From: Chrysogorgia sp. JL179-B06
Lineage: Eukaryota; Cnidaria; Anthozoa; Scleralcyonacea; Chrysogorgiidae
Assembly (NCBI GenBank): GCA_035772405.1
Contig: JAYKKM010000382.1
Span: 277,501 to 341,500 of the forward strand
Direction: 5' to 3'
DNA length: 64,000 bases
Under the pieces are notes generated by a model, which saw nothing but the letters and a program-made list of their open reading frames with translations, made no database searches and had not been told where the DNA came from. The translations under genes were made by a program, and so were the position numbers. Below, one piece after another: positions 1,874 through 63,414 of this stretch (positions are counted from its first letter, which is position 1; each line of letters opens with the position of its first letter).

Positions 1874-2681
1874 GTCAATATGCACTAGGCTTTCTGTTAA
1901 TAAGAATGAATAAAAATAATAAGATTCTCGCACGTGCAGGAGTATACTTCATATGGCCATGAAGAGATCGGCCGAATTATCGCTTATCTCGCTTTAGTCT
2001 ACAGGATTCCTATGAGGAAGAAATACTTTGGGAAACAGTGCGAAGAATTGTTAAAGATTAAATTTAAAACGTGTGGACATAGAAAATATAAACTAAAACG
2101 GTTTCAAGGCGCTGCTTTCGAAGCGTTGCTAGGCCAACTTATCCTACGGCGGATATTTGCATATTTCGCCTCATAGCACGCGTGTGGGAGGGTGATTAAA
2201 AGGTCATTAAAGGAATAAAACAAAAGGACATCACACAATAAGGTTTCCAGGCAGAAGAGTATATCTCTAAGAGTTTTAAATAGGTTTACTTGAACTGCTT
2301 TACTTCATATTATACAACGAATCGAGCGAGGAGTTCGAACGAATATATAAAGCGGGCAAACTAAACTTAGCAGCTTGAATAAATTTGTCCATTCCTATGA
2401 TGAAGAAACCCTACGGTAAACAGTGCGAAGAACTGTTCAAGATCTCAAACATATTGACTTGGAAAAAAATATAATTTAATCGGCATTACATTTACAGCGT
2501 TGATATACCAAATGCTTATACTGTTAATAAACATTTTGACCGAATTATCACTTATTTAACACTAGTATCGAAAGTCAGCGATTCTCGTGACTCTGAAACA
2601 GTTCGAGAAGCTGTGGTAAGAATTGTTGAAGTTTTTAGACGCGCGGACTTGGCGAAATATAACACGCTTTAATATCAGCGT
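1874..2681. repeat. Diverged repeats related to the duplicated block
   Basis: Pieces such as CCGAATTATC(G/A)CTTAT and GTGCGAAGAA(T/C)TGTT recur near 1970-2055, 2420-2440 and 2540-2630. They resemble the tail of the 814-1041 block. No convincing gene is present. Confidence 0.5.
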
Positions 2682-5600
2682 TGTCTTATCCTTATCTTTA
2701 TCCTTATCATTATCTTTATATTTATCCTTATCTTTATCCTTATCTTCATCCTTATCATTATCATTATCCTTATCCTTATCTTCATCCTCATATTTATCCT
2801 TATATTTATCCTTATATTTATCCTTATCCTTATCCTTATCTTTATCTTTATCCTTATCTTTATCTTTATCCTTATATTTATCCTTATCGTTATCCTTATT
2901 CTTATCCTTATATTTACCTTTATCCTTACCCTTATCCTTATCCTTATCCTTGTCTTTAGCTTATCCTTATCCTTATCCTTATCCTTATCCTTATTCTTAT
3001 TCTTATTCTTATCCTTATCCTTATCCTTATCCTTATCCACATTCTCATTATTATCCTTATCCTTATCCTTATACTTATCCTTATCCTTATCTTTATCCTT
3101 ATCCTTATCCTTATCCTTATCTTTATCCTTATCCTTATCCTTATCTTTATCCTTATCCTTATCATTATCCTTATACTTATCCTTATCCTTATCCTTATCT
3201 TTATCCTCTATTCTTATCCTTATCCTTAACCTTATCATTATCTTTATCCTTATCCTTATCCTTATCCTTATCCTTATCCTTATCCTTATCCTTATCCTTA
3301 TCCTTATCCTTATCCTTGTCCTTGTCCTTGTCCTTGTCCTTGTCCTTGTCCTTGTCCTTGTCCTTGTCCTTGTCCTTGTCCTTGTCCTTGTCCTTGTCCT
3401 TGTCCTTGTCCTTGTCCTTGTCCTTGTCCTTGTCCTTGTCCTTGTCCTTGTCCTTGTCCTTGTCCTTGTCCTTGTCCTTGTCCTTGTCCTTGTCCTTGTC
3501 CTTGTCCTTGTCCTTGTCCTTGTCCTTGTCCTTGTCCTTGTCCTTGTCCTTGTCCTTGTCCTTGTCCTTGTCCTTGTCCTTGTCCTTGTCCTTGTCCTTG
3601 TCCTTGTCCTTGTCCTTGTCCTTGTCCTTGTCCTTGTCCTTGTCCTTGTCCTTGTCCTTGTCCTTGTCCTTGTCCTTGTCCTTGTCCTTGTCCTTGTCCT
3701 TGTCCTTGTCCTTGTCCTTGTCCTTGTCCTTGTCCTTGTCCTTGTCCTTGTCCTTGTCCTTGTCCTTGTCCTTGTCCTTGTCCTTGTCCTTGTCCTTGTC
3801 CTTGTCCTTGTCCTTGTCCTTGTCCTTGTCCTTGTCCTTGTCCTTGTCCTTGTCCTTGTCCTTGTCCTTGTCCTTGTCCTTGTCCTTGTCCTTGTCCTTG
3901 TCCTTGTCCTTGTCCTTGTCCTTGTCCTTGTCCTTGTCCTTGTCCTTGTCCTTGTCCTTGTCCTTGTCCTTGTCCTTGTCCTTGTCCTTGTCCTTGTCCT
4001 TGTCCTTGTCCTTGTCCTTGTCCTTGTCCTTGTCCTTGTCCTTGTCCTTGTCCTTGTCCTTGTCCTTGTCCTTGTCCTTGTCCTTGTCCTTGTCCTTGTC
4101 CTTGTCCTTGTCCTTGTCCTTGTCCTTGTCCTTGTCCTTGTCCTTGTCCTTGTCCTTGTCCTTGTCCTTGTCCTTGTCCTTGTCCTTGTCCTTGTCCTTG
4201 TCCTTGTCCTTGTCCTTGTCCTTGTCCTTGTCCTTGTCCTTGTCCTTGTCCTTGTCCTTGTCCTTGTCCTTGTCCTTGTCCTTGTCCTTGTCCTTGTCCT
4301 TGTCCTTGTCCTTGTCCTTGTCCTTGTCCTTGTCCTTGTCCTTGTCCTTGTCCTTGTCCTTGTCCTTGTCCTTGTCCTTGTCCTTGTCCTTGTCCTTGTC
4401 CTTGTCCTTGTCCTTGTCCTTGTCCTTGTCCTTGTCCTTGTCCTTGTCCTTGTCCTTGTCCTTGTCCTTGTCCTTGTCCTTGTCCTTGTCCTTGTCCTTG
4501 TCCTTGTCCTTGTCCTTGTCCTTGTCCTTGTCCTTGTCCTTGTCCTTGTCCTTGTCCTTGTCCTTGTCCTTGTCCTTGTCCTTGTCCTTGTCCTTGTCCT
4601 TGTCCTTGTCCTTGTCCTTGTCCTTGTCCTTGTCCTTGTCCTTGTCCTTGTCCTTGTCCTTGTCCTTGTCCTTGTCCTTGTCCTTGTCCTTGTCCTTGTC
4701 CTTGTCCTTGTCCTTGTCCTTGTCCTTGTCCTTGTCCTTGTCCTTGTCCTTGTCCTTGTCCTTGTCCTTGTCCTTGTCCTTGTCCTTGTCCTTGTCCTTG
4801 TCCTTGTCCTTGTCCTTGTCCTTGTCCTTGTCCTTGTCCTTGTCCTTGTCCTTGTCCTTGTCCTTGTCCTTGTCCTTGTCCTTGTCCTTGTCCTTGTCCT
4901 TGTCCTTGTCCTTGTCCTTGTCCTTGTCCTTGTCCTTGTCCTTGTCCTTGTCCTTGTCCTTGTCCTTGTCCTTGTCCTTGTCCTTGTCCTTGTCCTTGTC
5001 CTTGTCCTTGTCCTTGTCCTTGTCCTTGTCCTTGTCCTTGTCCTTGTCCTTGTCCTTGTCCTTGTCCTTGTCCTTGTCCTTGTCCTTGTCCTTGTCCTTG
5101 TCCTTGTCCTTGTCCTTGTCCTTGTCCTTGTCCTTGTCCTTGTCCTTGTCCTTGTCCTTGTCCTTGTCCTTGTCCTTGTCCTTGTCCTTGTCCTTGTCCT
5201 TGTCCTTGTCCTTGTCCTTGTCCTTGTCCTTGTCCTTGTCCTTGTCCTTGTCCTTGTCCTTGTCCTTGTCCTTGTCCTTGTCCTTGTCCCTTGTCCTTGT
5301 CCTTGTCCTTGTCCTTGTCCTTGTCCTTGTCCTTGTCCTTGTCCTTGTCCTTGTCCTTGTCCTTGTCCTTGTCCTTGTCCTTGTCCTTGTCCTTGTCCTT
5401 GTCCTTGTCCTTGTCCTTGTCCTTGTCCTTGTCCTTGTCCTTGTCCTTGTCCTTGTCCTTGTCCTTGTCCTTGTCCTTGTCCTTGTCCTTGTCCTTGTCC
5501 TTGTCCTTGTCCTTGTCCTTGTCCTTGTCCTTGTCCTTGTCCTTGTCCTTGTCCTTGTCCTTGTCCTTGTCCTTGTCCTTGTCCTTGTCCTTGTCCTTGT

Positions 5601-6096
5601 CCTTGTCCTTGTCCTTGTCCTTGTCCTTGTCCTTGTCCTTGTCCTTGTCCTTGTCCTTGTCCTTGTCCTTGTCCTTGTCCTTGTCCTTGTCCTTCCTTGT
5701 CCTTGTCCTTGTCCTTGTCCTTGTCCTTGTCCTTGTCCTTGTCCTTGTCCTTGTCCTTGTCCTTGTCCTTGTCCTTGTCCTTGTCCTTGTCCTTGTCCTT
5801 GTCCTTGTCCTTGTCCTTGTCCTTGTCCTTGTCCTTGTCCTTGTCCTTGTCCTTGTCCTTGTCCTTGTCCTTGTCCTTGTCCTTGTCCTTGTCCTTGTCC
5901 TTGTCCTTGTCCTTGTCCTTGTCCTTGTCCTTGTCCTTGTCCTTGTCCTTGTCCTTGTCCTTGTCCTTGTCCTTGTCCTTGTCCTTGTCCTTGTCCTTGT
6001 CCTTGTCCTTGTCCTTGTCCTTGTCCTTGTCCTTGTCCTTGTCCTTGTCCTTGTCCTTGTCCTTATCCTTATCCTTATCCTTATCCTTATCCTTAT
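2682..6096. repeat. Hexanucleotide satellite (CCTTAT)n / (CCTTGT)n
   Basis: A mixed CCTTAT/CTTTAT zone occupies 2682-3312. It is followed by about 2.75 kb (3313-6062, roughly 455 units) of near-perfect CCTTGT, then six CCTTAT units. Only two phase breaks are visible in the pure block: an extra C near 5289 and a lost GT near 5693. The 1194-aa, 931-aa and other long frames here (Leu-Ser, Gly-Gln, Lys-Asp repeats) are an automatic result of a 6-bp repeat without stops and are not genes. Confidence 0.97.
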
Positions 6097-6590
6097 ATCT
6101 ACCAAAATAACGTAATGGAATCGGAAAGTTTTCGGTTGAGATTTAAAGTTACACAGGGGATAATGACAGGTCCTACTGGTACACGAGCTAGGGTTAACGA
6201 TTTGTGAAGGTTTAATGACGTAATATGAACAAATAATTAGGGTTAAGGCTCCTCCAGGAAGAAGAACTCATGACGTAACATCAAAATTCGGAATTATGTA
6301 ATGAATATTTAATGAGGCGGCATCCTTTGTGATAACCGCCCATATGTCGGCCAAAGGATGCTGCCTCATTAAATATTCATTACATAATTTCGAATTTTGA
6401 TGTTACCTCATGAGTTCTCGTCTTACTGGAGGAGCCTTAACCCTAATTATGTATGCATATATATTACGTCATTAAACCTTCAGAAATCGCTAACCCTAGC
6501 TCATGTACCAGTAGGACCTGTCATTGTCCCCCTATGTACCTTTAAATCCCCAACCGTGGACTTTCCGATGCCATTACGTTTTTTTGGTAT
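6097..6590. repeat. Imperfect long palindrome between opposed hexamer arrays
   Basis: Left arm ~6097-6329 and right arm ~6350-6590 are reverse complements with scattered mismatches and small indels. Both arms carry, for example, CATTAAATATTCATTACATAA and a copy of AGGACCTGTCATT or its complement. The centre is near 6340, within ...CCGCCCATATGTCGGCC.... It is bounded by (CCTTAT)n on the left and (ATAAGG)n on the right, so the inverted symmetry extends into the satellites. The arms have diverged, so this is not simply a mirrored read. Confidence 0.88.
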
Positions 6591-6596
6591 ATATAC

Positions 6597-7990
6597 GGAT
6601 AAGTATAATGATAAGGATAAGGATAAGGATAAGGATAAGGATAAGGATAAGGATAAGGAAAAGGAAAAGGAAAAGGAAAAGGAAAAGGATAAGGATAAGG
6701 ATAAGGATAAGGATAAGGATAAGGATAAGGATAAGGATAAGGATAAGGATAAGGATAAGGATAAGGATAAGGATAAGGATAAGGATAAGGATAAGGATAA
6801 GGATAAGGATAAGGATAAGGATAAGGATAAGGATAAGGATAAGGATAAGTATAAGTATAAGTATAAGTATAATGATAATGATAAGGATAAGGATAAGGAT
6901 AAGGATAAGGATAAGGATAAGGATAAGGATAAGGATAAGGATAAGGATAAGGATAAGGATAAGGATAAGGATAAGGATAAGGATAAGGATAAGGATAAGG
7001 ATAAGGATAAGGATAAGGATAAGGATAAGGATAAGGATAAGGATAAGGATAAGGATAAGGATAAGGATAAGGATAAGGATAAGGATAAGGATAAGGATAA
7101 GGATAAGGATAAGGATAAGGATAAGGATAAGGATAAGGATAAGGATAAGGATAAGGATAAGGATAAGGATAAGGATAAGGATAAGGATAAGGATAAGGAT
7201 AAGGATAAGGATAAGGATAAGGATAAGGATAAGGATAAGGATAAGGATAAGGATAAGGATAAGGATAAGGATAAGGATAAGGATAAGGATAAGGATAAGG
7301 ATAAGGATAAGGATAATGATAATGATAAGGATAAGGATAAGGATAAGGATAAGGATAAGGATAAGGATAAGGATAAGGATAAGGATAAGGATAAGGATAA
7401 TGATAAGGATAAGGATAAGGATAAGGATAAGGATAATGATAAGGATAATGATAAGGATAAGGATAAGGATAAGGATAAGTATAAAGTATAAGGATAAGGA
7501 TAAGGATAAGGATAAGGATAAGGATAAGGATAAGTATAATGATAAGGATAAGGATAAGGATAAGGATAAGGATAAGGATAAGGATAAGGATAAGGATAAG
7601 GATAAGGATAAGGATAAGTATAAGTATAAGTATAAGTATAAGGATAAGTATAAGTATAAGGATAATGATAAGGATAAGTATAATGATAATGATAAGGATA
7701 AGGATAAGGATAAGGATAATGATAAGGATAAGGATAAGGAAAAGGAAAAGGAAAAGGAAGAGGATGAGGATGAGGATGAGGATGAGGAAGAGGAAGAGGA
7801 AGAGGAAGAGGATGAGGATGAGGATGAGGATGAGGATGAGGATGAGGATGCGGATGCGGATGCGGATGCGGATGCGGATGCGGATGCGGATGCGGATGCG
7901 GATGCGGATGAGGATGAGGATGAGGATGAGGATGAGGATGAGGATGAGGATGAGGATCAGGATCAGGATGAGGATGAGGATCAGGATAAG
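6597..7990. repeat. Hexanucleotide satellite (GATAAG)n with block variants
   Basis: The complement-sense array of the left satellite. Long runs of GATAAG are interrupted by blocks of variants that keep the 6-bp register: AAGGAA, AAGTAT, AATGAT, then GAGGAT, GCGGAT and GAGGAT again towards 7990. Long Lys-Asp, Ile-Arg and Pro-Tyr frames on both strands are repeat translations. Confidence 0.95.
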
Positions 7991-8183
7991 GATTTCTCCA
8001 GAGAAACGTCCATATATGACGTTTCTCGTGGGTATAAAATCGATATGCGAGGCTTCCCACGCTCCTTTATTGATGAGCACTTTACGAATCAATATGGATT
8101 AACCTGTCAACCTTGGATACTAGTTCCACTAAGAATATACTAATTTAAAATTCAAATGAAGTAATCAAGTTTGTCTTTTTGTC

Positions 8184-8566: not shown

Positions 8567-9703
<1,137 letters not shown>

Positions 9704-10966
9704 ATGGTATCTTTCTCGTGGTCGTTGAAAACCGCTGCGTTGAGATGGATTATTTTCTTCCTTTTGTCAAGTTTGGTGACCTTTCAGGAATATTATGCAT
9801 TGTATTTGAAGCAATTAGGCTTCACTGCAAAAAAAATCGGGTTCACAACTCTCGGCGGAGCGCATGTTATATTTGTCCCTCTCATTGGAGTTTTAGCTGA
9901 TCGATATCGAGCAAGAAAATTGGTTTTATTTGTATGCCTTCTTGTACTAATTCTGCTGTCGTTGGTGCCTCTTACAATGCTGCCCAAGATCATATACGGC
10001 ACATGTGATACAACACAAAGTGATTATTTAAATAATGGGACCAACGACTTATTGAACGCAACCTTGTGGTTTAAAAATATCTCCGATTTGTCGCTCAAAA
10101 CATACAAGAATACTCCAATTTTGAAATTAACAGCAGTGCATTCAGTCCTCTCAATCTCAGATAATCAGTCTTCCCTCATGAACCGAACATGGGACCCATT
10201 GAAACAGAACGCCTATGTCTCGAGTTATTCATTCATATTTCTGCTGATGGTTTTGATTAGAGGGCAAAATCTCATCCTGATATATCCACTATATCGCTGT
10301 ATAACGTCGCTGTCATGACTCACCTCAAGAAAGAGAGAGCGAAATACGGTTCGTACTTTGGTTGGGGACAAATTGGAAGTTGTATATCTTTGTTTGCCGT
10401 CGGCATGATCGCCTCGTACGTAAAGAACACAGTTTGTGGTCAGGTCATGTATGGATACTTCGTAGCTTTTCCATTCGTAGCCATTACTATGAGTTTGTCG
10501 CTTGTTGCTCTCCCATGGATCTATTTTGAATATCTCGAACATCGTGTAATCAACTGGGCCGAAGTGAAAAGTGTTGTATTTAGCAGACACTATATGTTCA
10601 TTCTATTTATTAGTTGTTATTCTGGCTGCTGTTATTTATTTCAATATTACTGGGAGTTTTGGTACATCGCTAAGCTTTCTGGCAGCCCGAAAGTCATGGC
10701 GGTTTCAGGCTTAATTCGTCGACCTCTTGCAGTAATCTGGTTTCTTTCGGCAGGAAAGCTTATAAACAGACTTGGTGATCTTCGAACCATGGCGATAGCC
10801 CTATTTATCTTCGCAGTTTGCGAGATTTCTTTGTCGTTTCTTCAACTACCCTGGCTAATCTTGGTTATCGATTTTTTCCATCCGGCAGCATATGCTTTTT
10901 CGTATTCAGCGGTAAACGTCCATTTTTCAAAAACCGAATCAAAGGCCTCTTCTGCTGTAGTATTAG
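9704..10966 (+). CDS. MFSD6-type major facilitator transporter, first coding exon (one frame break)
   Basis: The Met at 9704 opens a hydrophobic protein. Its first helix carries the TFQEYYALYLKQLGF region, followed by the MFS loop signature LADRYRARK around residue 67. This pattern belongs to the MFS_1_like/MFSD6 group of 12-helix membrane transporters, whose substrates are poorly defined. The frame runs to 10318 and continues one frame over from about 10270: the second frame carries the family-typical ERAKYGSYFGWGQIGS segment and more helices. The change therefore looks like a single-base deletion (or 2-base gain), either real or an assembly error. The exon ends at 10966 before GTAAGG in phase 1 (intact donor). 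The matching last exon is at 43346-43551. Total protein is about 490 residues. Confidence 0.85.
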
Positions 10967-11975
10967 GTAAGGAAATAAAAATTATTAATGCTATCGATAT
11001 TTGAGAAATTGGTCAATGCTTTTGCATGGTAGAGGAAATACCACAAATATCGAGTGCAAACAAAAATAATCAATCATACACCAACGTATAATCGAGGTAT
11101 TATAGTGGCCGAAATATAGTCAACCACGCAAATCAACCACAGAGTGCGCTTGAGCAGGACTAAATTAACCACACAAACGTTATGTCTTTGGTTAATCTAT
11201 AGTTTCTAGGCGGGGGGTTAGGATTGAACTCTAGGCGGGGGGTTAGGGTTAGAACTAAATCTGCGATGTGGGTTTGTTGTATAGATGATATTGTTTGAAC
11301 TTATAGGTTAACGTAAGGCAAAATTATTTTTTGCAGCCTTTCCGCACGTTGTAATCAATAAACTAGAAATACGTATACGCAACAACCCCTCGCCCAATTG
11401 CTGTTTGAAACTTACAGTACAGTACTTCTTTTGGTTCTAAATTACTTGAATTAGATATTTTTGCCAAACTAAATAAATTTTCAGTGGACAATATCTCTCA
11501 GCTTTGTATTGTCTGAATTTAATTGTTTCATAGGACATCAAAATAAATACATGCAGTCCCAACTTTTTAATTTTTGAGTGCAGCAACAGAATAGTGGGGG
11601 TCTACTGCTGTTTCTACCATCAATCACTAAGAAAGAAATTACTTTTATCACAATATTGATGAACAGCAAGTTGATAATTCTACCCACATTCGACTACTGT
11701 GATGTGGAGCTGGCAGGAATATGGATAACTAAATATTGATGGTCATAATCAGAGGTTTCTAGGCATGTCAGGGAAACTGATCTTTCCTAAGTCGGGACTT
11801 GAAACTGATTGGTTAATAGAAATCCCAAGTTTTGTACCTCTTGTATTAGAAGCAAGTTACATTGTGTAATGCTAGTTAGGAAATTCCATGGCATTTTAAC
11901 ATCATATCTACCAGTAAAGAGCTATTTTCCATGTTTCAATTAATCTGTTCATACATGTTATAGCACCATTATCTA
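10967..11975. other. Intron start, no gene
   Basis: No coding frame. A 24-bp direct repeat containing CTAGGCGGGGGGTTAGG(A/G)TT occurs twice at about 11206-11255. Otherwise nothing recognisable. Confidence 0.5.
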
Positions 11976-13666: not shown

Positions 13667-13842
13667 TGTTGGATACTTCATGTTATAGTTAATCAAGTGA
13701 CCGAGAGGTCACGTGGCTGTTGTGTTATGTTAATGGCGATTTGGTCGATAAAGATATCAATAAATTCAAACTAATAAACGTTTCGGAGTTTAATCCTATG
13801 GACACTTAAGTGAATTAATTAAGTGAAATAATATATACAACA
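13667..13842 (+). repeat. BEL 5' LTR
   Basis: 176 bp, TG...CA boundaries. Identical to the 3' LTR, implying very recent integration or gene conversion. Confidence 0.96.
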
Positions 13843-13861
13843 TGGTCCTTTCGAGCCGGAG
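13843..13861 (+). promoter_or_regulatory. Probable primer binding site (tRNA-Tyr type)
   Basis: TGGTCCTTTCGAGCCGGA directly follows the 5' LTR. Its complement matches the 3' end expected for metazoan tRNA-Tyr (…CCGGCTCGAAGGACCA) apart from one extra base. The tRNA assignment comes from family knowledge and was not searched. Confidence 0.6.
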
Positions 13862-13947
13862 ACGAACCTAAATCTACGAGCCTTTGGAAAACAATCTACG
13901 CGAGCAAATTAACAACAAATCTTATTCGGCAACGTGACGCCAACGAA

Positions 13948-15400
13948 ATGAATGACGAAGTGGCAAAGAAACGAAAGATTCGAGGTGGACATAGATCCTC
14001 GACGAGGAGAACAATTAAATCCTCGATCACCATCCTTAACGATTTTGATCCAGCGAACAAATCACTTATTGAGAAGCTAATGCAACAGAAGATTACATTA
14101 AAGGAGAAATTAGACATTTTGCAAGCTTTGGACGATGACATACTAGTTAGTGTCGAAGAACAAAATATCGAGAGAGAAATCAAAGAATGTGACCTTCTGA
14201 GAGAAGAAATACATGCCACTTTAGTTCGAATCAATTCTTCAGTTAATTCTGCAAATGTATCATTGGTATCAGACCCAGTTGGAGGGATAGAGATGGGGAA
14301 CAACCTAAACTCAAGCACTTCAAGCCAGGCAGTTGCAAAGGTAAAGTTACCAAAACTGAATTTAAAAAAGTTCAAGGGAGATATTAAAGAGTGGACGCCA
14401 TTCTGGGATAGCTATTCATCATCCATACACAACAACCCTGATTTAAATAGTATTGACAAATTTAACTATTTAAATTCCTTACTTGAATCATCAGCAGCTG
14501 AGGCAATATCAGGGCTGAAAATCACATCGGCAAACTATGAAGAAGCAATTGAACTGTTGGAGCGCAGATTTGGAAACAAGCAACAGATTATCAACACTCA
14601 CATGGACTGCCTTCTCCAATTGCCAGCAGCAACAAGCCTCCATGACTTGCAGGATGTCAGGCGACTTTACGACAAAGTGGAATCACATGTAAGGGGTCTG
14701 AAGTCGTTGGGCGTTGCAACTGAATCATATGGGAATCTCATGATTTCAATATTGATGCCAAAAGCTGCCACCAGGACTACGAATTACTGCCACAAAGAAG
14801 ATGAAAAAGGGAGAGTGGTCCTTGGATGCCCTTTTGACACTTTTCCAGCAGGAATTGGAAGCCCGAGAAAGAGCAAATCTACAAGGTCCAGATACAACAA
14901 GGCCCAATAACCAAAGAAATAGAACCTACCCATCAGCAGCATCCCTTCTATCTAGTTATCAAGACACAACATGTAGCTATTGCCAACAGAAACACCTATC
15001 TGCTAACTGCAAAAACTGTAACCAATGTAATTGCAAGAAAGGATATCCTGAAACGAAGTGGACGGTGCTTTATTTTGCTTAAGAAAGAACCACATCAGTA
15101 GAGAGTGTCAGTCAAGCAACAAATGCCTTAAATGTGGGAAAAGACACCATGTAAGTTTGTGTACAAGCCAACACCCACCTCAATTCGTACCTCGATACCC
15201 ACCACAACACCCACCTCAATTCGTACCTCGATACCCACCACAACACCCACCTCAATTCCCACCACGATTCCCACCACGATTCCCACCTGAAGAACCGAGG
15301 GAGAATGAGAAACCCAATTGGCAATCAACCAGAAGTAATGGTAACCCTTTACTAAAAGAGCACAAAGGAGTGGCACAAGGTAGAAATCAACAAGAGCAAC
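13948..15400 (+). CDS. BEL gag region (frame-broken)
   Basis: The frame from Met 13948 (to 14910) carries the Pao gag pattern (DUF1759-like), including VKLPKLNLKKFKGDIKEW and a helix-rich region. Reading must shift near 14770-14800 into the frame 14801-15082, and again near 15050 into 15058-15804. The latter two carry the zinc knuckles (CSYCQQKHLSANC; then CLRKNHISREC and CLKCGKRHHVSLC). A Pro-rich tandem segment (PPQFVPRYPPQH repeats) follows at about 15175-15290. Gag packages the element RNA in a cytoplasmic particle. Confidence 0.85.
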
Positions 15401-17878
15401 CAGCCACCATCAGTCAAACCATGTATGTTGGCACAAGAACATCCATTCTGTTACAGACCGCCAAGGCCAACATATACAAACCAGGAATTCCAGAAGAAAG
15501 GGTAAAGATACGGCTGATACTAGACAGTGGCAGCCAACGTTCTTATGTGACAACCAGGTTGAAAGAAAAATTAAATCTAAACACAGAAGGAACAGAAACC
15601 CTTGTGATTAAGACATTTGGAGGTGAAGATGAGCAACCACAAACCTGTGAAATTGTGAACTTGACCATTGAGACAGAGAAGGGACTATCCAGACCTTCCG
15701 CTAACTGCTTTTGTGGTACCCACAATATGTCAACCCCTCAGCCAACAAGCGACACGAGAAGCACAGGAAAAATATCATCATCTAGACGGACTTCATCTTG
15801 CTGATGTTAACATGAGAGATGAAGAGTTAGAAGTGGATCTTCTTGTGGGATCTGACCAGTTTTGGAACCTTGCAACAGGAGCAGTAAAGTGTGGAGATTC
15901 TGGTCCAAATGCAATGGAAACAAAGGTAGGCTGGGTTTTATCCGGCCCAGTGAGTAACAGTCCAATTAAGAACAGTTCTGTCAACTTGGTGAACACACAT
16001 GTTCTAAAGTGTGCAATTCAACCGGTGCGTTCTGATGCCCAGGACTTAACACAGGAATTAAGAAGATTCTGGGAACTGGAATCGTTGGGGATACACCCAA
16101 GTGACGAGTCAGTCTATGAAAGGTTCACACAGTCTATTAACCTCAAGAAGAACAGGTATGAAGTAGAATTACCTTGGAAAGAAACCCATCCCATCCTTCC
16201 AGACAACCATCGTCTTAGTGAAAGAAGACTGAAATCGCTGTTAACACGATTAAGAAAAGACCCAGAAATTCTCCAAGAATATGACGATGTCATACAAGAG
16301 CAGCTGAGAAAAGGAATTGTGGAAGTGGTGGATCACTCTTGTCCTGGAGAAATTGGAAAGGTTCACTATCTTCCGCACCATGCAGTAATCCGAAGAGACA
16401 AGTCCACAACAAAGATGAGGATTGTGTATGATGCCTCTGCAAAGGAGAACGGGCCATCCTTGAACGATTGCCTCTACACAGGTCCTGCATTGGCACATAA
16501 CATCTTTGATATTCTTCTGCGGTTCCGGTGTCACAAGGTAGCTCTTATCGGAGATATCGAGAAAGCCTTCCTCATGCTGTCAATTCAAGATCCAGATCGA
16601 GACGTACTTCGCTTTCTATGGGTGGATGACATCCACCATTCCAACCCCAAGATCGTAACGCTGCGGTTCACAAGAGTGGTGTTTGGAGTCTCCTCGAGCC
16701 CTTTCCTTCTAAACGCAACGATCAAACATCACATAGAGCAACATCGAGTCAACGATCCAGAGTTCGTAGAGCATTTCTTGCAAGCCATTTATGTCGATGA
16801 CTTGAATGCAGGTGAAGACAACGATGATGCAGCATTTCTGTTTTACAAGAAAGCCAAACTGCGACTAGCAGAGGGAGGATTTAACTTGAGAAAGTTTTGC
16901 TCAAATTCGTCCTCACTGATGGCAAGGATAAAGGAGAACGAAGACCTAACTGAGAAGCACAATGGTTTACAAGCCCCTTTGACACATGACGAGTCTTACA
17001 CCAAGAGCACAACTGGGAATATATTCGAGCCAACAACCGAGCATGAGCAGAAAATACTGGGAGTAAAATGGAACTATGCAGAGGATTGCTTTGTATACGA
17101 TTTAGAACCGATTGCTCAGGCAGCCAAGGTTTGTGAGGGTAACGAAAAGGAACATAATAAGCGTAGCTTCCAGGTTCTAACGATCCGCTTGGATTCATCT
17201 CACCCATCATTATCCAAATGAAGCTGCTATTTCAGTCACTGTGTGATAACCGGATGGGACTGGGACACACCTCTAACAGGAGAACTACGAAGGAAATGGC
17301 TGAAACTCATTGATGATTTGAAGAAAACTAAACCAATAACACTGCCAAGATGCTACTTTGGATGTGTCAAAGAGAAAGTCGTATCCCGCCAACTCCATGG
17401 ATTTTGTGACGCCTCCATGTTAGCTTATGCAGCAGTGATATACCTCGTCGTCACAACCACGACCCAAAGATATGCCGAATTTGTCGCCGCAAAGACAAGA
17501 GTGGCACCAATTCAGAAGCAAACCATTCCGAGGTTGGAACTCCTGTCTGCTGTGATTCTAGCACGGCTGACGAAAAATGTGCATGGAGCACTAGAATCCG
17601 TACTACAACTGGATGAAAAGGTAGCGTGCTGGACGGATTCACTAGCCACCCTTTACTGGATTAGAGGAGAAACTAAAGAGTGGAAGCAGTTTGTCCAGTT
17701 GAGAGTCAATGAAATCCGAAGTCTCGTCCCTTTGACGTCGTGGCGACACTGTCCAGGTGAACACAACCCTGCCGACATCCCTACAAGAGCCATCAAGACT
17801 GTGGAGTTTGGAGACTGTAAATTATGGCACAGAGGACCCGAGTGGCTGACGAAATATGTGCAAACCCAACGGAGATAA
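15400..17878 (+). CDS. BEL pol: protease, reverse transcriptase, RNase H (frame-broken)
   Basis: The aspartic protease motif LDSGSQRSYV lies at about 15522-15550. A frame change near 15690 leads into 15668-17221. There the Pao-type peptidase/linker (LLVGSDQFW, GWVLSGP) is followed by RT with IVYDASAK, ALIGDIEKAF, FGVSSSPFLL and the catalytic YVDD at about 16790. Two further breaks lie between about 17120 and 17265. RNase H follows (FCDAS, RLELLSA, WTDS, NPADIPTRA) to 17878. All signature motifs are present even though the frame is not continuous. Confidence 0.88.
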
Positions 17879-19614
17879 CGTGGAAGAGTCATATTTTGCC
17901 CCTGAAGAGTGTCTTAAGGAGATGAAGGCCAAGAAAATGCAAGATAAGTCAACGACCACACTGTTAACTGAAGGAACGAAACAGAGTCTAAAGAATGTAA
18001 TCAATGTAGAGGACTTCTCGAGCTACCACCGACTTTTGAGGATAACTGTATATGTCCTGAGATTTGTGAGAATGATGAAATCCAAGATTGGAACTGGAAA
18101 TAATCAGCACCGTAAGCAGTTGAACGTTTCCCAAACTGAAGAAATAGAAGAAGCTGAAACATTGTGGTGGAGAGAAATGCAAGCTTCGCTCCCAGGACAT
18201 TCTAAGTACGAAGACTGGAGACGACAATTTGGAACGTTCACTGACGAGAACGGGATAATCAGATGCGGAGGAAGATTGGAGAATGCAAGCATTCCAGCGT
18301 CAGCGAAACATCCTGTGTTATTGGATCCAAGACATCATCTCACACTTCTTATTGTAAGGCATTGCCACGAAAGGGTCAAGCACAGCGGCGTGAAAGGAAC
18401 ACTAACAGAATTACGATCTCAATTCTGGATAGTAAGAGGACGACAGTTCATAAGAAAGATCATCTACAAGTGTGTCATCTGCAAGAGATATGAAGGAAAA
18501 TCCTATCAAGCGCCGCCACCACCTCCACTGCCAGAATGTCGTTTAAAGGAAGCATTTCCATTCGCAAGTACAGGTGTGGACTTCGCTGGTCCCCTCTATG
18601 TCCGGAGCTCTGAACACAAGGTGTGGATCTCACTTTACACATGCTGTGTAACCCGAGCAATGCATCTCGACCTTGTTCCCGATATGTCAGCTGAAGCATT
18701 TTTGAGGAACTTTCGCAGATTCTGTGCGAGAAGAGGAGTGCCTTCCCTTATGATATCGGACAACGCGAAGAACATTTAAGTCCACGTCACGAACATTGTC
18801 TTCCCTATTCGACTGTCCAAGCGTGAGAAACCATTTCACGTCATCGAGAATCAAGTGGTCATTTATACTTGAAAAGGCACCTTGGTGGGGCGGATTCTAC
18901 GAGAGAATGGTTAAATCAGTCAAGAGATGTTTGCGAAAAACACTGGGGAACGCGCGACTTTCCTATGAAGAGCTCCTGACTGAACTTGTCGAAGTAGAAT
19001 CAGTCCTAAATTCGAGACCACTAACATACACTTCAACGGAAGATTTGGAAGAACCAGTCACTCCATCGCATTTGATGTATGGACGAAGATTACTTTCATT
19101 GCCAGCGCCAGATGAAACAGAAGGAGACGAAAATTGGGAACCATCTTCAAACGACATCGCAAAGCGCCAAAGACACTTGGCCGTCCTACTGGACCACTTT
19201 TGGAGAAGGTGGAGAACCGAGTACTTACTAGAATTGAGAGAATCGCACCGAGAAAGGAACTCTGGCACAACAAGACAAGAACCAGTGAAGATTGACGACA
19301 TCGTGATCGTCCATGATGAAAAACGTTCTCGGGGACTTTGGCGAGTAGGAAGAGTAGAATATTTAATTCGTGGAAGAGACTACCAGATCCGTGGAGCCAA
19401 AGTAAAGGTGGCTGAAACCGGTAAGCGGCCGACTACACTCCGACGCCCATTACAGAAATTGTACCCATTAGAGATTGGCGGTGTGCACGTTCAAGCACCA
19501 AACCAGAAAACCGATATGGAACAAGAAACGGACGAACCTCCAGTTGAACAAGAAACAGACGAACCTCCAGTTGAACAAGAAACGGAACGAAGCTCAAGTT
19601 GGGCAAGAACGTAG
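17856..19614 (+). CDS. BEL integrase and C-terminal DUF5641-like tail (frame-broken)
   Basis: Two frames cover this part: 17856-18779 and 18796-19614. The first has the zinc-binding HC...CC domain (HCHERVKHSGVKGTL…CVICKRYEGK) and the catalytic core with STGVDFAGPLY and SDNAKN. The second has the third catalytic region (KAPWWGGFYERMVKSVKR) and NSRPLTYTS. The tail contains KIDDIVIVHDEKRSRGLWRVG and then a three-copy DEPPVEQET-type repeat. A stop and small shift at about 18777-18800 separates the two halves inside the core. Confidence 0.87.
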
Positions 19615-22019: not shown

Positions 22020-22207
22020 ACAGTATACTAATATTTCGAGTTCGGACTTTCGTTTTATTGCCAATGAATCGCTGTTGGAAAAGTTTACTGAGACCTGTAA
22101 ACCTGCAAACCATTGCAAAGATTCTCTCCAAGATGAGAGAAACACAGATGAGAGATCTTCAGATCAATCATGAAGACGGAAAGAACAGCCAAGGACAAAC
22201 ATATTAT
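22020..22207 (+). repeat. Left flank of the Helentron array, itself a C-type repeat fragment
   Basis: The stretch CCTGTAAACC(T/C)GCAAACC... through GAAGACGGAA matches the interior of the C1/C2 units (35957-36060, 37998-38100). It runs to the T|T target at 22207 and is continued collinearly after the array at 39008. Confidence 0.7.
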
Positions 22208-22362
22208 TACTCGGGCCTCCCCCCCTTGGGGGGAGAGCACGAATCTTAGAAAGGGCTCTGTTTATTTATTTATTTTTGGCAATGTCGCGAAATGGCAATT
22301 ATTGCATCATTTTTTACTAAATTAGTAGACTAGTGAGCGAGACTATGAATGTGGGATTACTA

Positions 22363-22368
22363 CACATG
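22363..22368. repeat. Target site duplication CACATG (left)
   Basis: Directly abuts the TIR tip TATGGAACGCC. The same hexamer lies at 34428-34433 beyond the other tip. Confidence 0.8.
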
Positions 22369-22404
22369 TATGGAACGCCAAGTGTGTAAAAATTATTTAG
22401 CGTA

Positions 22405-22914
22405 AATTATATGATATAATGACTTCGAATGACGGGAAACATACTTATATCAAACCATGAATTGTCATTTTTGTAATGGTTTGGTATAATTTAGATAAAC
22501 AGTTAACGTTATATCAAACCATGAGTTGCTGTTCTAGTCATGGTTTGATATAATTGAAAGACGCCAATTCATTATATCAAATCACGAATACCTGTAGAAG
22601 ACATGGTTTCATATAAAGCAACATGATCACAATACGTTATATAATTATATCAAACCATGACTTTTCACTTTAGTCATGGTTTGATATAATGCGAAACAGC
22701 ACTTCATTATATCAAACCATGACTTTGCAAATGTACTCATGGTTTGATATAATGCAAAGACGGCAATTTCATGATTTGAAACCATGAGCGGTTTGAGCAG
22801 CTGTATATAAAGACATGGTTTCATATAAACAACATGATCACAATTCGTTATATAATTATATCAAACCATGACTTTTCACTTCAGTCATGGTTTGATATAA
22901 TGTGAAACTGCACG
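22405..22914. repeat. Cluster of palindromic ATATCAAACCATGA repeats within the left TIR
   Basis: At least six palindromic units have the form TTATATCAAACCATGA-(8-13 nt)-TCATGGTTTGATATAA, spaced roughly 60-90 bp, with larger internal duplications (e.g. CAACATGATCACAAT(A/T)CGTTATATAATT twice). The TIR text CGCCAA(G/C)TGT(G/C)TAAAAAT occurs on both sides (22375-22397 and 22915-22935), so the cluster is an insertion or duplication inside the TIR. The right TIR lacks it. Confidence 0.85.
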
Positions 22915-23073
22915 CGCCAACTGTCTAAAAATCAATTAACGGCCAATATCCGGTTTAAGGAGAATGGGAACTAGCGGCCAAAGCGCGCCAACTCCAAGAT
23001 CAGCTTCCTTCTTCGGTACGGTTTATAGCGTGTGAAATCATCGGTTTTTTTCTGAAATCGCGAGTTATTTGTG

Positions 23074-31262
<8,189 letters not shown>

Positions 31263-31617
31263 TTAGAACTGTTACTCTCACCATTGTGTACATGCATAAA
31301 TTTAAGACGATTGTAAAATGATCCATTTTGCCTAAACGTTTTTAGAAACACAACACAACAATTTAAAGCGATTTCCTCGGAAAGGCCACATCAGTTTATG
31401 TATAGATGGATTACTTAAAGGGGTTCTTGACTTCTTGGACGAAAAAATTTATCTAATTATCTAATTTTGATCCAAGAAGAATATCATTTCAAAATGATAT
31501 ATGCAGTAACATCATAGTCTCCCACATACTACCATAAATGACATTTACAAAATAAAGAATATCTCTGAAAGTAGCATGCAGAAATCATTCAAACTTTGTA
31601 AAGGGTTAAATAAGCCC

Positions 31618-31632
31618 CCCCCCCCCCCCCCT
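31618..31632. repeat. Poly-C tract between the convergent genes
   Basis: Fifteen C in a row within the 511-bp interval between the HECT stop and the transposase stop. Confidence 0.9.
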
Positions 31633-31773
31633 TCTCGATGGTGGCTAAAAATAAGCCCTCAGCGGGATTAATAGAGGAAATACAATACGTACGTTTTTTA
31701 TAACCATCATTTCAATTGTAATAGCAAAGATTTAAAGTTCAGTATTGTTAAAGTTCAGTTTTTCAATCAAAGT

Positions 31774-34261
31774 TCAATTTTGACGAGCAATCATTGTACG
31801 TCCCACAAACTGTAACACACTGTTGTAAATTTCCATATGAGGGATTTCTGACAGTGGATTGATCTGCTGTTTGAGCTCCTCCAACTCATCATCTCTGAGG
31901 GGACATGTTGTCCGCGGAACATCGACAACAGAGAGGTCAGTAACAGATTCAGAAACATTGGCATCTGCAGCACTAGAAAGTGTTGGTTGGTGGAGTGGAA
32001 TAAGGTGAGAATTTAGGTGGAATAGTTGTAGAGGAGTTAGATTACCTTCAGTACGAACACCATGGTTATTATGGGCAGCAGCAAATTCTCTTACTGTCTT
32101 CTTTATGCGTGGAAGGAAGACATAGTGCAAACAAAACATGTCAGTTTCATTGTTAATGTCAAGTAGACCTAGATCTTCTAATTCGCGGAGCTTTGGACCA
32201 TACACATGGGCTAGATTAACATTGATGTCACGATTAAACCTCTCTACTCGTTGGTTGTGGACAGAGCTACCAACTATCACTGATCTTCTTTCGGTACCCC
32301 AGTGGTCATTCATATGCCTCCAAACCAGAACATTCTCCCCACCAAGATCAGTTCTAACATTAATTGGAAATCCGTATGATTCTGTGGCTTGCAAAAATAA
32401 TCTTTCTACAATTGTTGACCTGTTATTGTCGTTTGCATCAATGAAGACACAGGTACGACTGTAGCCATCAACACCAATGTGAACCACAATCCTGTACCGA
32501 ATGAGTTTGTGATTCCCATCCACATGCCATAAGTAAAGGGGGCAGGGGACACTATATTCTCTCCGATGTAAAGCTCTAGGGCGTCTGGCGGCCACTCCTT
32601 CAGGATCTATCTGTTGAAGCGTCTTCCTAACCTTTGCACGCTGAACATGCAGCCCCTGAGAACGAAGATGGCCATGAATCACCTTTTCTCCACAATTGGG
32701 GTGGTTTTTCTTAATTGACTGAATTGTAGCAGTTAAAGCTTCATCGTTGGCATTGGAAAACTTGGGTATTTCAAGACCGAACTGTTTTATATTATTGTAC
32801 AGGCTTGGTCGTGATATACCCAATCTTCTGGCAACAACGGTTAATGGCACTTTAAGATTAAGTAGAGATTCTATGTCTTCCTTAGTTACAGCACTCCGAG
32901 GTCGTCCTGCTATACTATAAAAATCAGAAATTTAAGATGGTCTGCTGTTAAAAAGATCTGATTGCTGTGCAAAATTGCTAACCACTAAAGCTAAAAGGTA
33001 AAAAATATGCAATGCAATGTGGGATACATTTGGGGTCACCCCAAAATTGTGTGACATAAGTACTTCTAAGGTACAAGATTAACTGTCAATGACTTACCTA
33101 TTTCTCTCATTAAGATTTCCATTTGACTGACTGCCAGTAACCTAATAAATGGCAACAATTAATTAATTTTTAAACAATTTTAACTTTTAAAATTTGGTCA
33201 ATTTCTCCTAAAATGGGCCTTGAATTTCACGTCAAATTCCCCTCAAAATTCCCACAAAACATATATAAGTTTGAAACAATCAACTCTGACGATTTCCTGG
33301 GTGAAGTTTCATATCATTCCCGAAATGACGTCACATAGACTATCGGTAGTAAAATTCGAAATTAAAATCCTTTATTTCTAAAAGAAAGCATTATCATAAA
33401 GGTTGGTGTTAGTATTAGGGTTAGTATTACGGTTAGTGTTAGGACTATCTTTTGAATTTGGGATTCTTATATGAAATGAAACGTCAGCCGATTTTCTCGG
33501 GCCGTGTATCATTGGGCCATTCCATTTAATAAGTGTACCCCCCCCCCCCCCCCCCCCCCCTATTGAAGGGTTGACTGTCAGACCCCCTGGGATACAAATA
33601 TTTGAGTACCTTCTTCGACAGATTTTCCGTTAACACACCCCCCTCTCCCCTTGGATATCCAGACCCCTCAATAGCTAGAACCCCTTCACCCCCTGGGATA
33701 TCCAGGCCCCCAATAGTCAGAACCCCTTCACCCCCTGGGATATTCAGACCCCCAATAGTCTTTTTCCCCTTAGATATTCAGAACACCCCGGATTTTTTTA
33801 GATATTTTATAGTTACCCCTTAGGATAAGTGAGTTACCAGCTCCTCTCCCCCAAGGATATTCCGACCCCTCAATAGGGGGTGCACTTATTAAATGGAATG
33901 GCCCATTGTCCACCCAGGGGCAGAAGTAATTGTCAAATCTACTGAGTATGCTCGATCCCCTGCGGCAAACCATTCACTAGTGCACAAGACTGTAAGAAGT
34001 AAGACGATCAACATTAACACTGATTTCTGTTCAACTGTTATACGTGTATGTCGAAATAAGATAAGTTTATTGATCTAAAAATGTAGCCATTTTGAACTAT
34101 AAATCAATTTATTAATTACGCACCTGGTCTGTCGCTGACAGCTGCTCTGTATTCATCGATGTTGCGGTTGGCGTAATGGGTCTCTGAGATAATACAGAGC
34201 TCACAGCTCCTGCTACGGCTCTTGATATGGCACCCGCCAGCGCTTGTTCGTTATTTGCCAT
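31774..34261 (-). CDS. Integrase-like DDE transposase (IS3EU-like), 3 exons
   Basis: Exons on the minus strand are 34261-34124, 33141-33098 and 32914-31774. GT/AG borders and matching phases (0, then 2) give 440 residues. Residues 1-46 come from the TIR exon and equal the HECT protein start. An AT-hook-like AGRPRS and a helix-turn-helix (VVARRLGISRPSLYNNIKQF) follow. The rve-type catalytic core has D193 (WHVDGNHK), D250 (RTDLGGEN) and E285 (NQRVERFNRD), with 34 residues between the last two. The downstream CLHYVFLPRI region is typical of this eukaryotic integrase-like family. It should cut and join the transposon ends. The frame is uninterrupted, so the gene looks functional. Confidence 0.88.
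33514..33904. mobile_element. Small MITE with internal C-rich tandem repeats, in transposase intron 1
   Basis: Ends GGGCCATTCCATTTAATAAG and its complement enclose a poly-C run (20 C at 33541-33560). Inside are about four ~40-50-bp repeats containing GATAT(T/C)CAGACCCCC and AGAACCCCTTCACCCCCTGG. A possible 3-bp ATT duplication flanks it. Confidence 0.7.
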
Positions 34262-34427
34262 CACAAATAACTCGGGATTTCAGAAAAAAACCGATGATTT
34301 CACACGCTATAAACCGTACCGAAGAAGGAAGCTGATCTTGGAGTTGGCGCGCTTTGGCCGCTAGTTCCCATTCTCCTTAAACCGGATATTGGCCGTTAAT
34401 TGATTTTTAGACACTTGGCGTTCCATA

Positions 34428-34433
34428 CACATG
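34428..34433. repeat. Target site duplication CACATG (right)
   Basis: Follows the complement of the TIR tip (GGCGTTCCATA). Pairs with 22363-22368. Confidence 0.8.
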
Positions 34434-51361: not shown

Positions 51362-54300
51362 TCAGCGTTTGTCGCCTCTCACTTCAATATTTTTGTGACC
51401 ATACGCGTAGGAGTCAATACCATTTTCTAAAAGGTATCGTTTATCATCAAAACAGGATAGCGACACTTTGTTAATTTCGTAACTACCGAGCTGATGTTTG
51501 ACACTTCTAATGGTCTTCATTGTGTGTCGCAATTGTTTCTGCTCAAGTAACACACTTTTGTAATCTTCGTGTCTGATCACTTTTTTAATTATATTCTTTC
51601 TAATACCTTTAGCGGTTTTCCCGCCGCCTCCACCCTCTTTCAAATAGCTATACATTTTACTGCGCAACCCGACGAACTCGACAATTGGCGTTCCAGCGCA
51701 CTCGTCCTTCATCTTCCCAATAACTTTCTTATTCTCTCTAAAAAAGAATGGGCTGTCTGCAGGATAGTCGCTATTGTCGAACTTTTCGCACTCCATCATA
51801 AAGTCGGAATAAACGTCGTCAGTTTTGATTACAATAGACTGTCAGTGTCAGTGAAGTGCAATCTACAGGTGTCGCTAGAGTACTTTTTCATAATGTAATT
51901 ATAGTGAAAATTGTACATCAGCGTTTTACTCAAGTCTAGTATGCACATACCCACATATGCAGGTCTATTTAGTGTCAACGTTTCTTTAACCTTATGGACA
52001 GCGACTAAGTTCTCGCTAAATATTTTGCAAGACACGAACGTCGGCTTCGAGACAAGCTTTTCTAATTTCTTCGCGGTGGTCACTAATCTTACGTCCACAC
52101 GCTTCCTCAAGTTTTCCATCGTTTTTCCGAACACACTGTTGTTCATTAACTTGAAGAAGTCCTTCTCAAAAGCGTTCTTAGCCGCAGTTCTTTTGACTGT
52201 GTTAAAGTCGATGTACTTGCCTAGCCACTTGGACTGGTCAAACTGCAGGACCCTGTGAATCTTATTGATTTTTAATCCAAGATCCATGTACAACTGCAGA
52301 TTTCCGTAGTGACACACATACTTTTTTTTGTTCATCAAATTAGTCACCAGCTTCTTCACACCGCCAACACTCACATTAAACTTATTTTTAATTTTCGTGC
52401 AGTACTCCGACAACATGTCAACGGTTATCTCCATCTTCTCAGGAGCCAGCGGGTAATCGTTATGTAGGTCATGCAAATGGTCTGGATACTCCAAGTCGAC
52501 CTCGAGCAGTAAACCTTTTTTACTATTGTTGTGATAGTCGTGCAGATTAACTTTTTCTATTTCTTTCTCAGTCAACCACTTGAAGCCGCCCGTGGGTAGA
52601 CTTCGACTCATTGCCCATCCATACAAATTGTTGGCGTCAAGGTACATTAGATACTTCGACTCTTGCGCTTTGTCATACCCTTCCATGTATTTATTATTCG
52701 CCACACCATGTCTGTTGCAAATGTAGCTCACACCACCACGCATACCTAATTCTACAAACTGGAACATGTCGATGTCGGACAATAATTCGAGTTCTACTCC
52801 AGTCATCTTTAACATAGCATCCCAAGCCAATCCGGGCGATGTAAAATAATGACACGGGTCTAATTTATACTCGCGATGGCATGTCTTTCTAAAGTTCTCA
52901 AAAACGTCGGCGAGCAAGAGCACATCACTTTTCAAATACAGGTCGTGGTACCCACCCATATTTTTAACGTCAAAGTAGTCCCACACATCGATGGCGCGCT
53001 CGTGCATTTCTTCCGTAATGTGCTCGTCATTCAGAACGCTGTAAAAGTCTTTTTTAGAGGGTAGCTCGCTTTCATCGAATTTTTCAAAGGAGTCCATATA
53101 ATCATAGGGGTAGACTCCCTTTCTTGTCATGAGTGCCAACCCATCGTCGCGAAACACTTCTGACGTGTATTTGAAAGCGTCCCTTGGTAGGTTCTTCACC
53201 AAGTTGTCTAGACCACTACTCATGAACTGAAAGCTGTCCAAGAACACCAAGTTTTTTCCAAGCATGAACGCCATGTACTTCTCCATGTTGTTCGGTATCA
53301 CATTTATGTCTTGGCCAAACTTACCAATCTCCTGCATAATGAAATGGCTATCGTAGCCGCGTAAGTTATGAAAGATCACAGGAATTTTGTCAGTCAACTT
53401 AAAGTTCACGTTACAATCGCGATGTGCAGACCCTCTGTACTTACCTGACACGTGACAGTGGTCTCTCACTCTAACGTCAGCGTCAGTGTACTCAACACTG
53501 CAAATATGGCAACTTTTAGCCTCGTCAAAGTCCTTCTTATCGTCATCAGTCAGTATCATCTCTTTGTTAAAGTGACTCTCAGATGTTTCTTTACAATATT
53601 CGACAATTTCTAACATCTCCCCAATGAACTTGTTGACTGCGTTTTCACCACGATACACTTTTACTGGCTTACTGTACTCGTTATCGTAGCAACAAACTAA
53701 TTTATACCCATAACCACAGTCAACGTGTCTCTGATAAGCGTTTGTGTAGCTACACTCGCTTGACAGCTTTGTTGTGTGCACCTTCTGTGTGATAGCCTCG
53801 AAGTCTGCGTACACCACAAACGGCACATTTAGTTGTCTACTAAAATTCTCGTATTTTACTTTCGCGCCTTTTTGTGGCATTTTAATAGCTTGCTTCCCAT
53901 TGATGACCAAACATACTTCCACATGACGTTCAAGCACGTCCTCGCGGGTGAAACACTGCAAACAATACCTACAAAAGTGCTTTCTCGCCTTATACTTTGT
54001 CTGACGGTACATGAATTTGTTAAAATCGCGAATGTACACATAATGCTTGTTGCCCGCGTCGTTAGTTATCAACAATAGGTCCATATGCAGTCAGGATACG
54101 TCTCCTTAGAAACGTACACAGGGAATGGCTGCTTATCTTCGTACCCAAAAACATTTATGCTAATATCGTTTGCCTTTTCGATCTTGTTGTAGTCTTTGAG
54201 TGTGACTGGGAAGTCAATTCCGTCATAGTTCAGCTCGCCGACATGCCTAGCGTACTTCGACGTTCTATCGGAGTGTTTTCCAACAGGAAACTTATGCGCT

Positions 54301-55013
54301 AGGTGACACCATCTAAAGCATTTGTTGTCATCATCGTTATTTACGTTTATCAGACCCTTCATACTGTTGCGCAGCTCCTTTGGCAGCGCAATGTAGCTAC
54401 TCCCATGCAAAGGTCTGTAAATAGCGACGTTGACGTAGTGCACATCTATTTTGTCGATAGTCCATCCAGACCCCTCAGATAACCACCCGGCTATCCGCGT
54501 CAAAATCTGCTCCGACCCGCGATTGGCAACACCCTCGATGTCATGCTCGTTAATGACGACGAACGTTTCGCTGTTAAAGTAGGCAGTTTTGTACGTGGTC
54601 TTATCGAGTTCTAAAACTTTCTCAAAAGTGACCTTGACTGTCTCCACCACTTTCATTCCGTTGGTCTCACCCAGCTCGCGTCTCAAAAGGTTAGTGACAG
54701 CACTTCTACTACCATTTACCTGATTGATGTCTCTGTCGTCAATTACCTCGACTCCATAAGACCTTGTGAACCCTCTCAGTGCTCGATCCAACAGCTGCGT
54801 CGACGACGTGTCACTATGGTCTTCAACTGTGGGTTGTGTTTCTTGGTCTCCAAAAAAGCCGTGAACGTTGGTCGCTCTATCTGTTAGTAGGTTCACAGCG
54901 TCTGCATTTGTGTAGCTACCTCGAGTCGCACCAGTTCTAGCAAGTTTCTTATGCGTCCGCCCACCAACCTCGACTTGTCTTTTTGTCAGTGAGGTTTTCA
55001 CAGTCCGACTCAT
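51362..55013 (-). CDS. Protein-primed type B DNA polymerase (three frames, two breaks)
   Basis: Three consecutive minus-strand frames form one polymerase: 55013-54069 (314 aa, N-terminal region with RWCHLAHKFPVG), 54084-51829 (751 aa) and 51799-51362 (145 aa, C-terminal thumb-like part). The middle frame has a C-x2-C...H zinc finger at residues 38-58, exonuclease motif YADFEA (~92-97), RDHCHVSGKYRG, HNLRGYDSHF, polymerase motifs LDANNLYG and KLMNNSVFGKT, and DTDS at its very end. Breaks lie at about 54075 and at about 51825, right after DTDS. Total length of about 1200 residues fits Polinton PolB, which copies the element from a protein primer. Whether the breaks are mutations or assembly indels is open. 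Confidence 0.88.
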
Positions 55014-55023
55014 TGGCTTATAC

Positions 55024-56033: not shown

Positions 56034-56037
56034 TAAC

Positions 56038-56280: not shown

Positions 56281-56295
56281 TGTCGTGTGTTTTGT

Positions 56296-59087: not shown

Positions 59088-59093
59088 AAAAAA

Positions 59094-59234: not shown

Positions 59235-59240
59235 TTTAAC

Positions 59241-60398: not shown

Positions 60399-60400
60399 TA

Positions 60401-61885: not shown

Positions 61886-61929
61886 ATATAATATACCATA
61901 TGTTACACATAACACATGCTACATTATAT
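61886..61929. promoter_or_regulatory. Divergent promoter candidate
   Basis: 44 bp between the chosen starts contain TATATAATATA and ATTATATATGG, oppositely placed TATA-like boxes. Confidence 0.4.
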
Positions 61930-63409: not shown

Positions 63410-63414
63410 ATTAT

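Follow-up and report, generated by a model that had tools for sequence, protein, structure and literature searches.

Transposon inverted repeats are normally treated as non-coding. In the maize element MuDR, two convergent genes are transcribed from promoters and start sites that lie within the terminal inverted repeats (TIRs) or immediately internal to them, and the TIR also contains a transposase-binding site (PMC3440606, excerpt). RAG-like transposons likewise carry two genes (PMC4411706, PMC7204232, excerpts), which are convergent in the account of PMC7204232. The IS3EU superfamily is marked by TA..TA termini and target duplications that are usually 6 bp, and the IS3EU/GingerRoot transposase is an integrase-like DDE enzyme without an HHCC domain (PMC10045372, excerpt).

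We analysed a 64,000-nucleotide stretch of the Chrysogorgia sp. JL179-B06 genome, called the window below (C382:277501-341500), and searched the 781-Mb assembly (522 contigs) with parts of it. The window contains an animal IS3EU-superfamily DNA transposon with convergent genes for an integrase-type DDE transposase and a HECT ubiquitin ligase. It is a real and surprising variant of a known transposon superfamily, having a coding exon in both TIRs, and we consider it very likely that this exon is shared in use as well as in position, with both genes employing it. With IS3EU/GingerRoot the element has in common the TA..TA termini, the 6-bp duplications and the integrase-like DDE transposase without HHCC; the HECT gene and the TIR-encoded exon belong to the window element, and neither is mentioned in the excerpt on the known system (PMC10045372). 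The nearest working analogue is MuDR, with its convergent genes and TIR promoters, although the TIR there supplies promoters and a shared coding exon is not described in the excerpt (PMC3440606). RAG-like transposons are alike in having two genes, and no TIR exon is mentioned in the excerpts compared (PMC4411706, PMC7204232). The literature searched, with Repbase and most subscription papers outside its scope, gave no description of a HECT gene in IS3EU or of a coding exon common to TIRs and no paper bringing IS3EU and HECT together; a Repbase entry may mention HECT in IS3EU or a TIR exon. The MuDR transposase belongs to a different superfamily from that of the window element, and the RAG-like transposase differs from it as well.

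The window element and its two genes

The features of the element are as follows, in order along the window.

22363..22368, no strand: target-site duplication CACATG, left copy
22369..34427, no strand: IS3EU-type DNA transposon, 12,059 bp including the nested insertion, recognised by termini, duplication and TIRs
22369..23268, plus strand: left TIR as far as the nested repeat, comprising the terminus, the palindrome array, a 5' region, exon 1 and the first part of intron 1
22415..22914, plus strand: short-palindrome array (TTATATCAAACCATGA type) in the left TIR, delimited by eye
23074..23211, plus strand: shared exon 1, HECT side, 46 codons, donor GTGCGT
23269..25005, no strand: nested repeat, inserted within HECT intron 1, with approximate limits
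25083-25456, 25998-26157, 27024-27244, 27342-27446, 28485-28810, 29724-29905, 30399-30789 and 31018-31262, plus strand: HECT exons 2-9, phases consistent
31774..32914, minus strand: transposase exon 3, integrase core, in-phase chain
33098..33141, minus strand: transposase exon 2, 44 nt
34024..34427, minus strand: right TIR, without the ~500-bp palindrome array, inner limit approximate
34124..34261, minus strand: shared exon 1, transposase side, identical at 138/138 positions
34428..34433, no strand: target-site duplication CACATG, right copy

The limits agree with those of the initial annotation, the element running from TATGG to CCATA (22369-34427) with CACATG on both sides and with the terminal sequences TATGGAACGCC...GGCGTTCCATA. 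That annotation had also proposed a 138-bp, 46-codon, phase-0 exon in both TIRs, in phase on the left with an eight-exon HECT ligase and on the right with a DDE transposase, and each part of the proposal stood. The two copies of exon 1 show 0/138 nucleotide differences, have no stop and end in the same phase-0 donor (CAG/GTGCGT). From the left copy, a HECT gene of nine exons, exon 1 included, gives a predicted protein of 713 aa. A HECT domain was found in this spliced protein (Pfam PF00632, E 2e-12, residues 417-685, above cut-off), whereas three unspliced frames gave no Pfam match to it. An NTC cysteine near the HECT C-terminus, which we take to be the catalytic cysteine, is aligned in the window protein and in 3/4 relatives, P0126 having NTS. 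The acceptor of HECT exon 2 (tttaacataaag) is weak, with 9/16 pyrimidines, and an additional HECT exon at 30070-30147 was dropped because its frame runs into a stop. At 28690-28730, the HECT protein reads DLCGPTREF in the window and DLGGPTREF in a second full copy on contig C399.

From the right copy, the transposase gene has three exons, exon 1 included, and a predicted protein of 440 aa. Its core (31780-32916) matches Pfam PF24764 with E 4.3e-63, and rve with E 1.1e-5, below cut-off. When exon 3 was scanned, none of its nine Pfam matches (E up to 1) was a zinc-binding (HHCC) family ahead of the core, where weak helix-turn-helix matches lie below cut-off, and no Mutator family was among the matches, the core being of the integrase type of PF24764 instead.

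The TIRs differ in length (~404 bp on the right, ~900 bp on the left as far as the nested insertion). The ~500-bp palindrome array was considered as a recent insertion in the left TIR, and this was rejected: both TIRs of the C399 copy and a lone end on C281 have the array, so it is original TIR sequence that the right TIR of the window element has lost. Its palindromes are possible protein-binding sites. The repeat nested in intron 1 also flanks the element in opposite orientation, from 34430 to ~35830 and at ~22200-22368 (partly by eye), and since it stands on both flanks, the element is probably enclosed by a further copy of that repeat. An inverted repeat reaching 35817, considered as an extension of the TIR, belongs to the nested repeat.

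The rest of the window holds other elements. The block at 51832-64000 is Polinton/Maverick-like on our own reading. It has a 753-aa frame which, by eye, resembles a DNA polymerase and whose one Pfam match, to Endonuclease_7 (E 3e-4), falls below cut-off; at 58305-59093 there is a BRO-N protein and at 63373-63999 an rve-like integrase, the latter also below cut-off. Retroelement fragments, probably BEL/Pao by eye, occupy 13819-19611, with DUF5641 at 18754-19611. Simple repeats make up ~5 kb at 2620-8140 and are strongly asymmetric between the strands (AT skew -1.0 in 4001-6000), and there are two overlapping frames of an MFS_1-like transporter at 9683-11001.

Copies and diverged families in the same genome

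Searching the genome with the left TIR returned 14 places, including the full copy on C399, which is 97.5% identical to the window element over 9.4 kb. This copy is 10,769 bp long with target duplication GCGGCG, and its own TIRs match at 98.5% over 939 bp. Its exon 1 is open in both TIRs; the left exon is 6 nt shorter, a gap that is the sole difference within the pair, and both have gained 3 nt relative to the window. The lone C281 end, truncated within the exon, has an exon that lacks 12 nt in frame. Indels in exon 1 are thus multiples of three in 3/3 cases; one neighbouring intron indel is also 6 nt.

We aligned the four TIRs of the window element and the C399 copy over 348 columns. In 10 columns (3 events) the two TIRs of each copy agree and differ from those of the other copy, the crossed pattern occurs in 0 columns, and 8 columns (3 events) carry changes in a single TIR. 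This is the pattern predicted by homogenisation within a copy, on few events. In the outer region deleted from the right TIR of the window element, the C399 pair differs from the window left TIR in 12 columns, and in 10 the C399 right end stands alone. As read from these alignments, the exon in both TIRs changes in concert within one copy.

A transposase search of the genome gave at least 110 matches, with 108/1566 candidates scored, and from the top of these we took six diverged families (C70, C439, C202, C231, C5 and C428) in which both ends were compared. Their transposases are 46-48% identical to that of the window. All six have a convergent HECT gene, and all six have an ATG-started exon with a phase-0 donor in both TIRs. 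The two TIRs match each other over 826 bp at 95% in C70, 1067 bp at 88% in C439, 899 bp at 88% in C202, 917 bp at 95% in C231, 1193 bp at 99.8% in C5 and 1006 bp at 98% in C428. Within these pairs, the exon copies differ at 0/72 (C70), 1/90 (C439), 4/99 (C202), 0/105 (C231), 0/87 (C5) and 0/126 (C428) nucleotides. The initial annotation had expected TIR homogenisation to keep the two copies identical: the part concerning homogenisation is supported by the 10 agreeing against 0 crossed columns above, but identity has its limit in C202, where the four differences bring three amino-acid changes and the HECT matches contain stops.

The C70 intron-1 acceptor (TTTCACTTTCAG) is the innermost piece common to both TIRs and is in phase with both genes; in C439, C202, C231 and C5, the link from exon 1 onward to a second exon was traced at one end at most. 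Together with the window element and the C399 copy, the six families make eight full elements, and in these the TIR exon is open in 16/16 TIRs. Out-of-frame exons in sister copies, named by the initial annotation as evidence against its reading, were accordingly not encountered there, and in all eight the TIR combines a recombination end with an N-terminal coding module for two convergent genes, as had been claimed for the window.

Both ends with TA..TA termini were located in 7/8 full elements, TATGG...CCATA being found in six; the C399 right end reads ...TTCATA. In C428, the left end is TATGAGGCGCC, terminal bases that are absent at the right end, where by eye a few bases have been lost. The 6-bp duplication matches exactly in 7/8 full elements, C231 among them, and GACGAC adjoins both ends of C428 (by eye). 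The TIRs of C70, C439 and C202 have short-palindrome arrays of their own upstream of exon 1, with a sequence that differs per family, which are possible transposase-binding sites. Both ends of C231 contain a further short stretch (NAQPRQPTN...) whose borders are splice-like, and some families may therefore share two exons.

Among other loci, on which the transposase side was examined, C393 carries a C428-type exon, C518 a C70-type exon and C263 a related module with an ambiguous donor position. An open module on the transposase side at least was found in 9/9 diverged loci fetched by their transposase, a non-random sample from the top of the list. In C271, C65 and C66, which are non-autonomous relatives, one exon copy of the pair contains a stop, as is expected where no protein depends on it.

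The HECT partnership was surveyed across the transposase matches listed. A convergent HECT match lies within 15 kb in 37/110, comprising 29/39 of the best matches and 8/71 of the others (ranks 40-110), where the cut at 39 was set post hoc after viewing the list and two of the eight belong to a single gene. A HECT partner is hence characteristic chiefly of elements more closely related to that of the window. A genome search with the HECT exons gave at least 144 matches, with 150/307 candidates scored. The 1.7 kb upstream of a distant transposase on C501 that has no HECT partner (C501:1177301-1179000) contain an ATG frame (MAENPVNHVVSVLKEALDHIQNVSR) followed by an S/T-rich tail, similar in character to the exon-1 module.

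Coding constraint on exon 1 and related N-termini in other species

Between exon 1 of the window and a related solo C5 end, dS is 0.98 and dN 0.095 over 38 codons. The differences at codon positions 1/2/3 number 3/4/17, and Fisher p is 2.5e-6 on rounded counts. The exons of C263 and C428 give dS 1.68 and dN 0.21 over 25 codons, and shorter, weaker comparisons give dS 0.37 and dN 0.14 (C271) and dS 0.76 and dN 0.17 (C439 solo). The two C202 exon copies run in the reverse direction (dN 0.05 > dS 0.02), on 4 changes. Judged by these substitutions, exon 1 is under purifying selection.

A search of public proteins with the transposase found 609 relatives, of which 120 were listed and 18 examined. 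By eye, 7/18 have a comparable N-terminus (P0023, P0025, P0026, P0031, P0033, P0057 and P0070), and the other 11/18 start at or near the core or with a different sequence. The HECT searches returned 6 and 5 proteins, too few for a survey; among the six HECT relatives examined, the module is present in P0121 and P0123 alone, preceded in P0123 by 22 residues, while P0122, P0124 and P0125 are without the N-terminal part and P0126 starts differently. P0121-P0123 are coral proteins annotated as G2/M-phase-specific E3 ubiquitin ligase-like. They are homologues of the element's second gene, yet their sources name them as ordinary genes, unlike the transposon HECT gene of the window.

In other species the module was compared at the protein level. 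Comparison of the N-terminal modules of P0057, a transposase from Desmophyllum, and P0123, a HECT protein from Montipora, gave a score that 0/500 shuffles reached, and each of the two matches the C5 TIR exon, again with 0/500 shuffles as good. The Dendronephthya HECT protein P0121 matches the C428 and C263 TIR exons (0/500), and the fish transposase P0031 resembles the C428 exon (0/500). For the C70 exon, no significant similarity to four annotated N-termini was found, and common descent is therefore not extended to all seven exons. Taken across families, these comparisons establish a long-conserved coding exon in both TIRs, recurring in seven families.

Possible functions of the shared exon

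We infer that exon 1 is spliced in this host and that a promoter lies within the TIR. Each TIR would then be composite, made up of an outer recombination end, a palindrome array, a probable promoter, a phase-0 first exon and the start of intron 1. Inward transcription from either end would begin in near-identical sequence, and splicing would put the same N-terminal peptide, a helix with a flexible tail, on two unlike bodies. Because the exon lies within the TIR, the N-termini would be kept alike within a copy as its two TIRs change in concert, and could diverge between families.

Residues 2-25 of exon 1 are predicted to be helical, with a loose tail after them (mean pLDDT 89 for residues 1-10 and 96 for 11-20). 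In 13/14 members of the module, at most 36/500 shuffles reach its hydrophobic moment, the exception being C70 with 148/500. The presence of such a short amphipathic helix in the two proteins points to mixed association, by which the ligase would be brought to the transposase. That the helix lets transposase and HECT ligase associate is a tentative reading, for which the predicted helix is the evidence, and the wider proposal that TIRs in a whole clade of animal IS3EU elements encode an association tag common to the two proteins is one to which we would give somewhat less than an even chance. If so, the common helix would most likely co-assemble both proteins, with the ligase recruited to the transposase or its DNA complex, where it would either modify host factors or set transposase levels. 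Partner recognition could then not easily drift apart, because the common N-terminus is encoded in transposon ends whose sequences stay alike.

Of three rival readings, the first two concern function rather than architecture. One that we regard as rather unlikely is that a single protein needs the exon, the TIR having grown over it by gene conversion and the other end carrying a tolerated leader that brings no gain. Purifying selection on exon 1 would look identical in that case, and the amino-acid differences between the two C202 copies are in keeping with it, but all seven families retain the layout, annotated proteins with related N-termini include a coral transposase (P0057) as well as coral HECT proteins (P0121, P0123), and the likeness of the fish transposase P0031 to the C428 exon also speaks against it. 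Improbable, in our judgement, is that the TIR exon acts chiefly as a cassette of promoter and start codon, one homogenised promoter serving two genes, with the peptide as a by-product. MuDR, with TIR promoters and two convergent genes, offers a precedent (PMC3440606, excerpt), and the C70 TIR extends to the end of intron 1; against this, a dN/dS of ~0.1 in exon 1 indicates that the peptide itself is kept, and the three exon indels are all multiples of three, though the nearby intron indel of 6 nt is so too. That the exon is translated in neither gene, its open frame being chance or an upstream ORF in the 5' UTR, deserves almost no weight: translation is predicted here from sequence, but chance origin is excluded because the exon is repeated in six diverged families with substitutions biased to synonymous ones. 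This reading is also opposed by the open exon with a phase-0 donor in 16/16 TIRs and by the homologous N-termini that annotated transposases and HECT proteins carry.

With a coding exon shared between both TIRs and very likely used by both genes, the ends of this transposon are protein-coding, common to two genes and, on the substitution pattern, selected as peptide. A recombination site, the start of a gene and two proteins would thereby evolve in a coupled manner. The family offers a natural setting in which to study why ubiquitin ligases are carried by some transposons, and exon 1 provides a handle for pairing transposase with ligase genes across animal genomes. Some coral genes named as G2/M-specific E3 ligases may be transposon genes.
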